Shown piece by piece: positions 1,435-5,603 of a stretch of DNA of 64,000 nt (the stretch's first letter is position 1; every line of letters begins with the position of its first letter). The stretch comes from Parapedobacter lycopersici (GTDB lineage Bacteria; Bacteroidota; Bacteroidia; Sphingobacteriales; Sphingobacteriaceae), in the NCBI RefSeq assembly GCF_024643285.1, contig NZ_JAMSLW010000003.1, positions 434,097-498,096 of the forward strand, in the 5' to 3' direction. Below the pieces are notes generated by a model, which was not told the DNA's origin, did no database searches, and saw only the letters and a program-made list of their open reading frames with translations. The position numbers were made by a program, and so were the translations under genes.

Positions 1435-2157
1435 TTAATTTATAGCTAAGGGCAGTAAGTATAAGTAAGCCAATGCGATTAGGATTGCACTTCCAAAACT
1501 GAGCAATGTGCCGATGAGTACATATTCCGTGAGTTTCCGGTCTTTACCCTGCCGGAGATCGCCAAACCGGAAAATGGATTTGGCTGCCAGCAGAAAGCCA
1601 ACGGCCTCCCAATGGTGGGTAATAATGAAGACAAAAACAAAGAGCCGTTCCAGTATGCCGATGAACCGGCCCGCTTTGACTAATGATGCTTCCGGCATTT
1701 CACGTGTTTCGGGACTCCATTGGGCAATAAGCATCCGGATCACGACGGCAGGGACGAAGACAGCCAGGGCCAGGGCGGTAACGAACAGCAGAACGGGACC
1801 GGTAATCAAGCCGGAAAAAGAAAGTAAAAACGGCTCGTATGCGTATGCAACTACGGCCAACAGCGTTACATGCAGGAATTGATCAATGGAAAAATACCAG
1901 ATGGCATGCCGGTCTTTTTCCATGTATAGCTTGGCGAGGTCAAATAGGTAATGGGAGGCAATGATGATGAGGAACCCCCATAAATAACGCCGGTCGAAAC
2001 CAAGTACAATAGCCAATGCAATGGCGTGGATAAGCAGGTGGGCATATAGTTTTGTTGACCGGTATTTGTGCCGCCGTTTGTCGGCCACCCATTGGTCGGG
2101 CTGAAAACAGAAGTCGCCGATAATGTGGGCCAGCAATAGCTTGAGAAAAAGGATCAT
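1435..2157 (-). CDS. DUF3307 family integral membrane protein
   Basis: Predicted polytopic inner-membrane protein of 240 aa with no assigned function. The N-terminus (LLLAHIIGDFCFQPDQW) is the typical opening of DUF3307 proteins, and at least five hydrophobic segments follow. Its ATG overlaps the TGA of the upstream SatD-like gene in an ATGA arrangement, so the two are translationally coupled. In other Bacteroidota these two families often occur together, which suggests a joint role, but I know of no demonstrated function. The family assignment is from motif memory. Confidence 0.8.
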   Translation of the reverse strand: MILFLKLLLAHIIGDFCFQPDQWVADKRRHKYRSTKLYAHLLIHAIALAIVLGFDRRYLWGFLIIIASHYLFDLAKLYMEKDRHAIWYFSIDQFLHVTLLAVVAYAYEPFLLSFSGLITGPVLLFVTALALAVFVPAVVIRMLIAQWSPETREMPEASLVKAGRFIGILERLFVFVFIITHHWEAVGFLLAAKSIFRFGDLRQGKDRKLTEYVLIGTLLSFGSAILIALAYLYLLPLAIN

Positions 2158-2786
2158 TTTTTTGCCTTTTGTTGGATTAGCTCCCTGAAATACCTGTCCA
2201 GATTCATAATTTCTTCATGTCCCGCACGCTGCTGCCGCTCGCTTACCCGCCCCTGGCTGATCCCGATGAGCCGGGCCAGCTCCTGTTGCGTTTTCTGGGG
2301 ATGCCGGATGGAGAGAGCCATGATTTCAGCCGAGTTGACAGTCCACCGGTCCATGGTCAACAGGGCCAGTTCCAGGCAGAGGTTCATCACGCGGTCTACC
2401 TCTTTCCAGGGTGATTTAATGGCCAGCGTGGTTTTTTTCAAGTGGTCAAACAACCGTCCTGAATTTGTGAATGCCTCCCCTCCGGCTTCGCTGATGGTTG
2501 GCGCACTGTACGCTTTGGCACCGATACCGATCGCCATCCGTACGTCGAGACCGGCAAGGCTTTTCATTGTGGCTTTAATGCACAGTGCCTCGCTGAGTAC
2601 ATTTTCGGCTGGAGTTATTTCCAGCTGGAAACTGTCGCCCCGGATAATTTCCCAGGTCTGCGGCGAAGGACCGATCCGGCGGAGCGTTTCCTTCAATACA
2701 GGTAGCCATACACCTGGGTCGGCCTGCTGGGAATTGATCATGTCTCCTACAATAACTCCAATCATAGTAACCGAATAGTTACCCAA
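2154..2786 (-). CDS. SatD-like protein with C-terminal helix-turn-helix
   Basis: Protein of 210 aa. The N-terminal two thirds (IGVIVGDMINSQ..., IIRGDSFQLEI, RMAIGIG) resembles the SatD family. The C-terminus (about 155-190, QELARLIGISQGRVSERQQRAG) reads as a helix-turn-helix like those in small DNA-binding regulators. It forms a coupled pair with the downstream DUF3307 gene. Three 18-bp palindromes lie 33-106 bp upstream of its start, and a TAAATTTG -7-like box (2812-2819, minus) touches the first of them, so the protein may repress its own promoter. The regulator role is inferred; the HTH and palindromes are directly visible. Confidence 0.7.
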   Translation of the reverse strand: MGNYSVTMIGVIVGDMINSQQADPGVWLPVLKETLRRIGPSPQTWEIIRGDSFQLEITPAENVLSEALCIKATMKSLAGLDVRMAIGIGAKAYSAPTISEAGGEAFTNSGRLFDHLKKTTLAIKSPWKEVDRVMNLCLELALLTMDRWTVNSAEIMALSIRHPQKTQQELARLIGISQGRVSERQQRAGHEEIMNLDRYFRELIQQKAKK

Positions 2787-2811
2787 AAATAAGTCATGTC
2801 TGGAAATAAAG

Positions 2812-2819
2812 CAAATTTA
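2812..2819 (-). promoter_or_regulatory. Probable -7 box of the satD-like/DUF3307 operon
   Basis: TAAATTTG on the minus strand matches the Bacteroidota -7 consensus TAnnTTTG, 26 bp upstream of the start codon. No clear TTTG -33 element is present at the usual distance. The box overlaps the edge of the first palindrome, which would allow repression by a protein bound there. Confidence 0.45.
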
Positions 2820-2892
2820 TCTGCCTTAAAGCAGATATTTATTTTTATCTGTTTATAAGCAGATATTTAAAGTTATCTGCTTTAAGGCAGAT
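2819..2892. repeat. Three 18-bp palindromes with exact 28-bp period (operator array)
   Basis: ATCTGCCTTAAAGCAGAT (2819-2836), ATCTGTTTATAAGCAGAT (2847-2864) and ATCTGCTTTAAGGCAGAT (2875-2892) share the half-site ATCTGC/GCAGAT around a 6-bp AT-rich centre. Their start points are exactly 28 bp apart. The array lies in the divergent gap between the satD-like gene and alaS. The symmetry and regular spacing point to cooperative binding of a dimeric regulator, most simply the SatD-like HTH protein encoded next to it. Confidence 0.75.
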
Positions 2893-2906
2893 AATTAACC
2901 GCAGTG

Positions 2907-2941
2907 TTTGTTGCACAAACAGGCTATTTTCGTTAATTTTG
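2907..2941 (+). promoter_or_regulatory. Probable alaS promoter
   Basis: TTTG/TTG around 2907-2913 followed after about 20 bp by TAATTTTG (2934-2941) resembles the Bacteroidota promoter TTTG-N19-21-TAnnTTTG. Transcription would start about 25 bp before the alaS ATG. It lies just downstream of the palindrome array, so cross-regulation of alaS is possible. Confidence 0.45.
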
Positions 2942-2972: not shown

Positions 2973-5603
2973 ATGACCAGTAAAGAAATCCGCGAAGCCT
3001 TTTTGGCTTTTTTCCAGGATAAGGGCCATCAGATTGTGCCTTCCGCGCCTGTAGTAATCAAAAATGACCCTACCCTGATGTTCACCAATGCGGGGATGAA
3101 TCAGTTCAAGGATTTCTTTTTGGGCGAGGCGCAGCCCCGGTATCACCGGGTGGCCGATACCCAGCGCTGCCTGCGTGTGTCGGGCAAGCATAACGACCTG
3201 GATGAGGTCGGGATCGATACCTATCACCACACCTTGTTTGAAATGCTGGGCAACTGGAGTTTCGGCGACTATTTCAAGAAAGAGGCGATTGCATGGAGCT
3301 GGGAGCTGATTACATCCGTATATGGCATCCCGAAAGACCGCCTATATGTCACCATTTTTGAAGGTGATGCCCAGGATGGACTACCCAAAGACACGGAGGC
3401 CCAGGATTTCTGGAAAGAAGTTATGGCCGAAGATCGTATCCTGCTGGGCAATAAAAAGGATAATTTTTGGGAAATGGGCGATACCGGACCGTGCGGGCCG
3501 TGTTCGGAGATCCACGTAGACTGCCGCCCCGACACCGAAAGGCAGGCTGTAGACGGTAAAACACTGGTAAATGCAGACCATCCCCAGGTCATCGAGATCT
3601 GGAACCTGGTATTCATGCAGTTTAACCGCCAGAAAGACGGAACATTGAAACCGCTGCCGGCCAAACATGTGGATACTGGTATGGGCTTTGAACGTTTGGT
3701 ACGGGTCATCCAGGGCAAGCGTTCCAACTACGATACCGACGTATTCCAGCCGCTGATCGGCTATATTGCCGAACGGGCGGGAATAACATATGGGAGTAAC
3801 GAACAGACCGATATTGCTATGCGGGTCCTGGCCGATCACATCCGTGCCATCAGCTTCGCTATCGCCGACGGCCAGTTGCCGGCAAATAACAAGGCCGGTT
3901 ATGTGATCCGCCGTATTTTGCGGCGTGCAGTGCGGTACGCCTATACGTTTCTGGGCTTTAAGGAACCTTTTTTGCATGAATTGGTGCCTTTGCTGGCCCA
4001 GCAGTTTGAAGGTGTTTTCGACGAACTGGCTGCCCAGCAGAATTTCGTGCAAAAGGTGGTGCTGGAAGAGGAACAGGCATTCCTGCGTACGCTGGTAACG
4101 GGCATGCAGCGATTTGAGGCATATGCAGCCGGAAATACATCCGTTGCCGGTGATTTCGCGTTTGAACTATACGATACATTTGGCTTCCCTATTGACCTGA
4201 CCGACCTATTGGCGCGCGAAAAGGGCATAAAGGTGGACATGATTGGCTTTCAGCAAGCGCTTGATGCACAGAAAAACCGTTCACGGGCGGCTACGGCCAT
4301 TGATACGGGCGACTGGTTAACGATACATGAAGGCGATACCGTGGATTTTGTCGGATACGACGAACTGGAATGCCGGACAGAAATCCTCAAATACCGGCAG
4401 GTAACTGCCAAGGGGAAAACGCAATACCAAGTGGTATTGGCCACCACACCATTTTATGCTGAGGGCGGCGGACAGGTTGGGGATACGGGCATATTGGTCG
4501 CCGACGATAGTGGGGAAACGATAACCATTACGGATACAAAAAAGGAAAACGGACTGACCGTTCATTATACCGATGAATTACCGGCCCAGCCGGGTGGGAT
4601 ATTCACAGCCAAGGTGGACGCTGCCAGACGCCTGGATACCGAACGCAATCACTCGGCAACACACCTGCTGCATGCTGCGCTGCGCGATGTGCTGGGCGAT
4701 CATGTGAGCCAGAAGGGGTCGTTGGTCAACGCCGAGTACCTGCGGTTTGATTTTGCACATTTTGCAAAGGTAACGGCCGATGAATTGTTGCGGATCGAAC
4801 AGATCGTCAACGCCAGCATCCGCCGGAATATTTCACTGCAGGAAAAGCGGAATGTGCCGTTCCAGCAGGCGATTGACAGCGGTGTTACGGCCTTGTTTGG
4901 TGAAAAATACGGTGAGTATGTGCGAGTAATTACGTTTGACGACCATTTTTCTAAAGAACTTTGCGGTGGCACACACGTGCAGGCTACGGGGCAGATCGGC
5001 TTTTTCAAAGTGACTGCGGAAAGTGCGGTGGCTGCGGGCGTACGCCGTATCGAGGCCATTACCGGCCGTGGTGCCGAACGATTTATTTATGAACAGCTGG
5101 ACACGATCGGCCAGCTGCGGGAATCGCTGAACAATCCTAAGGATGTTGTCCAGGCACTCAGTAAACTGCGGGAGGAGAATGTGGCACTGCGGAAAGAGGC
5201 GGAGCGTGCCGCTACGGACCGGGCACTGCAGCTCACGGCCGAATTGGCCGGCAAAGCTGAAAATATCGACGGGGTTCATTTTATTGCCCAGCAAGTGGAA
5301 CTTCCGAACGCCGAAACAGTAAAAACCCTGGCCTATGCACTGAAAGGAAAACTCAATAACCTGTTCCTGGTGCTGGGAACTGTCATTCAGGATAAACCCC
5401 TGCTTACCGTGGTGGTGTCGGAAGACTTGGTGGAGAGTCGTGGCCTCCATGCCGGAAACATTGTGCGGGAACTGGCACGTGAAATCCAGGGTGGGGGTGG
5501 CGGACAGCCTTTTTACGCCACTGCAGGAGGCAAAAACAGCGGCGGACTGGCCAATGCGCTGGCCCGGGCGCGTGCATTTGTAACACAGGTCGACGTTAAT
5601 TAA
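2973..5603 (+). CDS. alaS: Alanine--tRNA ligase
   Basis: Cytosolic class II synthetase that charges tRNA-Ala with alanine and edits mischarged Ser/Gly-tRNA-Ala. At 876 aa it is full length. The N-terminal catalytic domain opens with EIREAFLAFFQDKGH. The editing-domain zinc site is visible as HSATHLLH (about 560) and CGGTH (Cys664). The C-terminal oligomerisation/C-Ala part ends with the glycine-rich loop GGGGGQPFYATAGG. The next gene starts 9 bp after the stop, so alaS and the thioredoxin-like lipoprotein are probably cotranscribed. Confidence 0.98.
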   Translation: MTSKEIREAFLAFFQDKGHQIVPSAPVVIKNDPTLMFTNAGMNQFKDFFLGEAQPRYHRVADTQRCLRVSGKHNDLDEVGIDTYHHTLFEMLGNWSFGDYFKKEAIAWSWELITSVYGIPKDRLYVTIFEGDAQDGLPKDTEAQDFWKEVMAEDRILLGNKKDNFWEMGDTGPCGPCSEIHVDCRPDTERQAVDGKTLVNADHPQVIEIWNLVFMQFNRQKDGTLKPLPAKHVDTGMGFERLVRVIQGKRSNYDTDVFQPLIGYIAERAGITYGSNEQTDIAMRVLADHIRAISFAIADGQLPANNKAGYVIRRILRRAVRYAYTFLGFKEPFLHELVPLLAQQFEGVFDELAAQQNFVQKVVLEEEQAFLRTLVTGMQRFEAYAAGNTSVAGDFAFELYDTFGFPIDLTDLLAREKGIKVDMIGFQQALDAQKNRSRAATAIDTGDWLTIHEGDTVDFVGYDELECRTEILKYRQVTAKGKTQYQVVLATTPFYAEGGGQVGDTGILVADDSGETITITDTKKENGLTVHYTDELPAQPGGIFTAKVDAARRLDTERNHSATHLLHAALRDVLGDHVSQKGSLVNAEYLRFDFAHFAKVTADELLRIEQIVNASIRRNISLQEKRNVPFQQAIDSGVTALFGEKYGEYVRVITFDDHFSKELCGGTHVQATGQIGFFKVTAESAVAAGVRRIEAITGRGAERFIYEQLDTIGQLRESLNNPKDVVQALSKLREENVALRKEAERAATDRALQLTAELAGKAENIDGVHFIAQQVELPNAETVKTLAYALKGKLNNLFLVLGTVIQDKPLLTVVVSEDLVESRGLHAGNIVRELAREIQGGGGGQPFYATAGGKNSGGLANALARARAFVTQVDVN

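Follow-up and report, generated by a model that had tools for sequence, protein, structure and literature searches.

What does a set of three palindromes in exact register do between two divergent genes, and which protein reads it? The window analysed here, that is the whole stretch of DNA with its length of 64,000 nt, carries such an array between the start codons of a satD-like gene on the minus strand (ATG at 2765) and of alaS on the plus strand (ATG at 2973). The name of the SatD family (Pfam PF16264) comes from satD of the sat operon of Streptococcus mutans. In the papers searched, SatD and DUF3307, which is encoded directly after it, appear in annotations and passing mentions only, and no description of a DNA-binding role of SatD or of the array was found. 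Autorepressors with operator arrays are known among antitoxins, restriction-modification controllers and phage repressors. From the comparisons reported below we consider it highly probable that the array serves the satD-DUF3307 operon as its operator and that SatD binds it. SatD would thereby repress its own operon and would probably be tuned by a nucleotide. This provides a testable function for two uncharacterised proteins found over several phyla and on tiny plasmids.

The Palindromes Form a Ladder of Half-Sites

A previous sequence-only reading had described three 18-bp palindromes with conserved ATCTGC arms in an exact 28-bp register. The register is present: the core ATCTG-N8-CAGAT occurs at 2819-2836, 2847-2864 and 2875-2892, with palindrome-to-palindrome spacings of exactly 28 and 28 bp and no fourth match within the window, and three core matches were reached in 0 of 100 dinucleotide shuffles (chance expectation 0.03 matches). 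While the sites are real, the full palindromes measure 20 bp (TATCTGC-N6-GCAGATA) and the left arm of the middle one reads ATCTGT. The gaps of 8 bp between half-sites are equal within and between palindromes, and the array can be written as a ladder of six 6-bp half-sites (TATCTG) alternating in strand each 14 bp. This alternating-strand half-site every 14 bp, rather than the palindrome period of 28 bp, is the deeper regularity (Table 1).

Table 1. Positions of the array, the neighbouring genes, the candidate promoter elements and the related ladders on predicted viral contigs.
Feature	Position	Strand	Description	Basis
Palindrome 1	2818..2837		half-sites TATCTG 2818-2823 and CAGATA 2832-2837	pattern search of the sequence
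Palindrome 2	2846..2865		half-sites TATCTG 2846-2851 and CAGATA 2860-2865; left arm TATCTGT, one mismatch against the others	
Palindrome 3	2874..2893		half-sites TATCTG 2874-2879 and CAGATA 2888-2893	pattern search of the sequence
satD-like gene	2154..2765	minus	203 aa; predicted palm/cyclase-like N-domain (about residues 1-118) and C-terminal HTH	Pfam profile, model, fold search
HTH recognition helix	2223..2261	minus	residues 169-181 (ISQGRVSERQQRA); 173 and 176 covary with the half-site	
satD -7-like element TATTTTTG	2784..2791	minus		sequence; consensus TAnnTTTG from PMC7366714
satD -33-like element TTTG	2812..2815	minus	two bases from the ladder	sequence; consensus from PMC7366714
DUF3307 gene	1435..2157	minus	240 aa, predicted membrane protein; start overlaps satD stop (ATGA)	
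alaS	2973..5603	plus	divergent neighbour of satD	
Candidate alaS promoter elements	TTTG 2907-2910, TAATTTTG 2934-2941			sequence
Ladder-bearing predicted viral contigs	L248-L284, L287-L294, L301-L365, L367-L430		mostly four half-sites	

The Ladder Is Conserved Upstream of satD

Homologues were collected from 201 genomes of the family (106 positive, in 17 of 25 genera), 396 of the class (64 positive) and 392 of the phylum (110 positive), sets which overlap and to which an Ignavibacteriae MAG and plasmids were added. A strict lag analysis of 18-bp palindromes misses arrays in which the sixth base pair varies, and the step between half-sites was analysed instead. Ladders were found upstream of satD-DUF3307 throughout Bacteroidota, in the Ignavibacteriae MAG and on proteobacterial plasmids; a search beside homologous gene pairs, which the sequence-only reading had named as a check, thus returned arrays in other genera and phyla. 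At the family level, 84 of 107 satD upstream regions have 14 bp as their best step between half-sites, and 74 of the 107 contain at least four consecutive half-sites at this step, which no shuffle does at any step. Phylum-wide, at least four regular half-sites are present in 174 of 204 unique satD regions, compared with 9 shuffles showing scattered periods; the homologues are related, so that neither these nor the family-level counts represent independent events. The period is 28 bp in 125 of the 174 arrays and 29 bp, corresponding to a 14/15 alternation, in 45, which makes 170 together, while for approximately 15% of satD loci the detector used picks up no clear ladder. Among the gene pairs on plasmids, that of Vibrio has repeats with period 28 and those of Escherichia coli, Klebsiella and Enterobacter have period 29; no ladder was found by the same detector at the plasmid pairs of Sphingomonas and Pseudomonas fragi. 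The half-site itself is diverse, with 33 consensus words among 161 arrays.

Six genomes, that of the window and five others whose satD carries TATCTG, have the TATCTG ladder nowhere but at satD, and matches with two to three mismatches elsewhere in these genomes occur at the level of the reversed-pattern control. A search for a wider regulon in the genome of the window found no site besides satD. If SatD regulates itself locally and has no wider regulon, its specificity could drift freely or be pushed by phages.

SatD Combines a Predicted Palm Domain With a Helix-Turn-Helix

The window protein matches the SatD family profile weakly, below the Pfam cut-off (23.8 bits, gathering cut-off 29, E 3.6e-5); three ladder-bearing homologues from the same genus score above it, and of 45 aligned members the profile matches 33 with an E of 0.1 or less. 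Its C-terminal HTH resembles sigma-region-4 in profile searches. An AlphaFold2 model built from a three-sequence alignment (pLDDT 81, pTM 0.84; residues 93-107 poor) predicts an alpha/beta N-domain followed by a C-terminal helical HTH domain. Fold neighbours of the N-domain are class III cyclases (Rv1900c, Ma1120), the Cas10 palm, GGDEF domains and the palms of Y-family polymerases, at middling scores (best Z 7.7, i.e., <8; best Foldseek E 0.026), and the SatD sequence profile weakly touches class III cyclases as well. Members of the palm/cyclase superfamily carry acidic residues at the end of strand 1 and in the hairpin of strands 2 and 3, the nucleotide cyclases having a single hairpin acid (PMC2904730). 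According to the model, these acidic sites correspond to D8 and D44 of SatD, which are kept in 190 of 192 and 203 of 204 homologues, respectively. For the N-terminal half of SatD the model suggests a palm domain resembling that of cyclases, in which the active-site aspartates hardly vary. Given such a palm/cyclase-like fold and the acids at its metal site, the binding of SatD is probably tuned by a nucleotide or by a signal derived from one. While SatD would share the N-domain fold and two acidic positions with the superfamily of Rv1900c, Ma1120, GGDEF and Cas10, it differs in being a small stand-alone palm with a C-terminal HTH that is encoded together with a DUF3307 membrane protein.

The Membrane Partner and the Mobility of the Gene Pair

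The DUF3307 protein of the window matches PF11750 with 102.8 bits (gathering cut-off 23), and in 107 of 107 homologous loci (106 of the family and the MAG) DUF3307 directly follows satD on the same strand. Its homologues are multi-helix membrane proteins whose invariant residues (His, Asp, Lys, Glu and Arg) suggest a membrane enzyme. DUF3307 also occurs in phages without SatD (phrog_2470) and is encoded by the jumbo phage RsoM2USA (PMC8504454); named phages carrying SatD were not found. In E. coli, the ColE1-like plasmid pEC34A (3770 bp) encodes Rop, MobA, SatD, DUF3307 and a small hypothetical protein, satD-DUF3307 being its sole recognisable cargo (L222 1792-3481), and the pair is also present on a 4.4-kb Klebsiella plasmid (L230 278-1937). 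No match covering most of the pEC34A region was found in E. coli genomes, the matches listed being pieces of about 138 bp upstream of satD on small plasmids. The carriage on plasmids, the patchy distribution and the changing neighbours of satD-DUF3307 suggest an accessory cassette.

A pair with these properties could be of the toxin-antitoxin kind, with SatD as DNA-binding, autoregulatory antitoxin and DUF3307 as membrane toxin. The overlapping genes with the DNA-binding one first, the autoregulatory operator, the diversified specificity and the role as sole recognisable cargo on a 3.8-kb plasmid would agree with such a pair. However, a palm domain with conserved catalytic-type aspartates is unusual for an antitoxin, the invariant His, Asp, Lys and Glu of DUF3307 resemble those of a membrane enzyme, and phages encode DUF3307 without any SatD (PMC8504454), so that we regard this assignment as unlikely.

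The Position of the Ladder Argues for Autorepression

The candidate satD promoter elements TTTG and TATTTTTG agree with the Bacteroides promoter consensus TTTG/TAnnTTTG (PMC7366714). The -7 box had been thought to abut the first palindrome, which is wrong, as it lies 26 bp off and it is the -33-like TTTG that abuts. Across satD loci the median distance from the ladder end to the satD start codon is 28 nt. Among 55 loci with an exact TAnnTTTG, the ladder overlaps this box in 24 and ends between -33 and -7 in 29, and the last half-site of the Enterobacter kobei ladder contains a -35-like TTGACT. As the ladder usually overlaps the core promoter, autorepression by SatD is implied: the bound ladder would reach the core promoter and thereby shut off its own operon, repression being the economical reading of this position. 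Two or three bases separate the ladder from the downstream -33-like element in the window and in its TATCTG relatives, a placement compatible with an activator, and activation is therefore possible there. SatD would then bind the ladder and activate the operon, or a ligand would switch it between activation and repression. Since the ladder of most loci reaches up to or into the core promoter, which favours occlusion, we consider activation quite unlikely and retain repression as the preferred sign of regulation.

The sequence-only reading had also allowed for an effect on alaS. In the genus of the window, the five TATCTG genomes have this gene as divergent neighbour, and outside these the upstream neighbour changes, e.g., to a GuaB-like C-terminus in L012, L013 and L015. 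A conserved effect on alaS is unsupported, and regulation of alaS as a conserved role is disfavoured by this change of the neighbouring gene.

The Half-Site Follows the Recognition Helix of SatD

If SatD binds the ladder, the C-terminal HTH would read the inner bases of half-sites of the form TA-NNNN. Of the 203 columns of the SatD alignment, 176 and 173 rank first and second in the family set by mutual information with the half-site. Phylum-wide, column 173 ranks first for base 5 and column 176 for bases 4 and 6, base 3 hardly varying. The residues at 173 and 176 and bases 4-6 form a code, in which S,E is paired with CGG (33 genomes), Q,T with CAT or CAC (22), R,E with CTG (5) and A,A with CGC (4); moreover, Q,R goes with GAC, GAT or AAC, L,G with CTG, and S,G with CGT. 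As a control for relatedness, pairs with a palm identity of 25-50% were compared: the half-site is the same in 80% of the 570 pairs with equal residues 173 and 176 and in 2.6% of the 8608 pairs in which these differ. A natural switch is seen at 84% identity between L060 (TATCGG) and L044 (TATCTG), whose helices differ by S172P and E176G. A formal phylogenetic test of the covariation by independent pairs contained too few supported transitions to decide.

Because the half-site follows residues 173 and 176 of the recognition helix, SatD itself is very probably the binder of the ladder. Selection of the array for protein binding and autoregulation by SatD, both proposed by the sequence-only reading, are upheld at the level of sequence comparison by the conservation of the ladder with satD-DUF3307 and by this covariation with the helix of the adjacent SatD. 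The alternating half-sites every 14 bp, or 14/15 bp in a second class of SatD, correspond to about 1.33 helical turns, and cooperative binding would be possible for an oligomer of SatD that makes two alternating contacts. With 33 DNA words read by what appears to be one HTH family in a nearly one-to-one code of residues to bases, the loci provide a natural data set on DNA recognition.

Palindromes are used by many regulators and the binding of SatD is deduced from sequence, which leaves room for another DNA-binding protein reading the ladder, with SatD merely a regulated neighbour. However, the sites of an unrelated regulator would not track the helix residues of SatD, and here the word follows two of them in the adjacent SatD almost one-to-one over 33 words, distant relatives included; we judge another binder to be very improbable. 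That the repeats act as RNA hairpins, i.e., attenuators or terminators, is hardly credible, for although each palindrome could fold into a short hairpin and some secondary ladders lie at the 3' ends of genes, the half-site word goes with the HTH residues, the stems would be short and rich in A+T, and hairpins need neither one word per array that differs between genomes nor a spacing fixed at 14/14 or 14/15.

Secondary Ladders in Bacterial Genomes

TATCGG ladders were found in 41 of 106 genomes with SatD and in 2 of 95 without it, and in some genomes there is a further ladder besides that at satD, usually with four half-sites. Genomes of genus g15 carry a second ladder, which overlaps a small DUF6965 gene at its 3' end (L112 2003-2050, L114 1963-2010, L115 2014-2061). 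Others lie near SRAP and response-regulator genes or in phage-like regions, one of them directly upstream of a gene for the terminase large subunit and one beside a phage-type integrase. TATCAY ladders are confined to genomes of groups g16 and g17, whose SatD has the matching specificity, and the secondary ladders thus follow the local code.

Two individual cases were recorded in addition. In two g16 genomes (L297 1965-2012, L298 2036-2083) the same gene, whose product has about 260 aa, carries a second TATCAY ladder at its 3' end, the neighbourhood being conserved, and genome G102 (g18) has a TATCGG ladder (L244 1961-1994) with no SatD detected.

Ladders of SatD Words on Predicted Viral Contigs

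A scan of 2.9 million IMG/VR contigs for ladders of SatD words returned 37 stretches with a TATCGG ladder of three half-sites, compared with 2 for a 13-bp and 2 for a 15-bp step as controls, and 8 with a TATCTG ladder. For TATCGT 65 stretches were obtained, some on near-duplicate contigs, compared with 1 for the permuted word TATGCT. The period-29 word TATAAG, with four half-sites in the spacing 14/15/14, gave 65 stretches representing 47 distinct sequences. Four half-sites are the commonest size (30 of 45, 37 of 65 and, for TATAAG, 65 of 65 with none longer). Three contigs carry two ladders of different SatD words, namely L255 (TATCGG at 14/14 and TATAAG at 14/15), L380 and L389; in the same 1.57 Mb of fetched loci, 13 other spacings yielded 0-1, the main counts there being biased by how the loci were fetched. 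The ladders are mostly intergenic, and several are adjoined by terminase, methyltransferase, endonuclease or structural genes, which supports the phage nature of these contigs; L257 shares SRAP and response-regulator genes with the chromosomal locus L116 and may not be a phage. SatD and DUF3307 are absent from the viral ladder loci and from 50 whole contigs tested, which may be fragments.

An operator function of these ladders for a particular phage gene is disfavoured by the mixed orientations of the flanking genes. A search for a phage-encoded HTH of the SatD type as the binder gave one weak match (E 0.003) in 3037 ORFs near ladders. Because of the mixed orientations and the usual number of four half-sites, a decoy or an element recruiting SatD fits the viral ladders better than an operator of a phage gene. 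It may thus be that phages interact with SatD, perhaps by means of decoys; matching operators that occur on phage contigs in the absence of the genes, and that show the words of SatD and the spacing of its classes, would point to an unrecognised interaction between phages and a host regulator. We tentatively propose, with rather more doubt than belief, that the module acts at the interface of phage and host: SatD would be an autorepressor that senses or makes a nucleotide, phages would titrate or recruit it by minimal, allele-matched ladders of four half-sites, and this contest would drive the diversification of the DNA specificity of SatD.

As a separate observation, the ladder of L312 (3802-3849) lies near probable phage tRNA genes, as judged from BLAST matches to phage tRNAs.

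Relation to Known Systems

Judged by its sequence features, the SatD system would belong to a known kind, the HTH autoregulators that act on operator arrays, and represents a new form of it. Like antitoxins, restriction-modification controllers and phage repressors, it has an HTH protein and repeated palindromes at its own promoter, with implied cooperativity and a specificity that diversifies among relatives. Unlike these, it typically has at least six half-sites in a strict strand-alternating 14/14 or 14/15 spacing, a predicted cyclase-like domain, a membrane-protein partner and matching ladders on viral contigs. The new form lies in the cyclase-like domain, the strict strand-alternating ladder, the recognition code and the matching viral-contig ladders; neither the domain nor the specificity code nor the copies on phage contigs had been part of the earlier reading of the window.

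A loose likeness exists to Pycsar, which combines a cyclase with a membrane effector, as the cyclase-like SatD is encoded with a membrane protein, occurs on plasmids and was once found beside Pycsar-annotated genes. In contrast to Pycsar, SatD has an HTH and an operator ladder, and no PADLOC-DB model matches the SatD or DUF3307 of the window. On the Sphingomonas plasmid concerned (L225 2983-6567), satD-DUF3307 is located beside a Pycsar-annotated effector and an adenylate/guanylate cyclase, with TIR-domain and ImmA/IrrE genes near.
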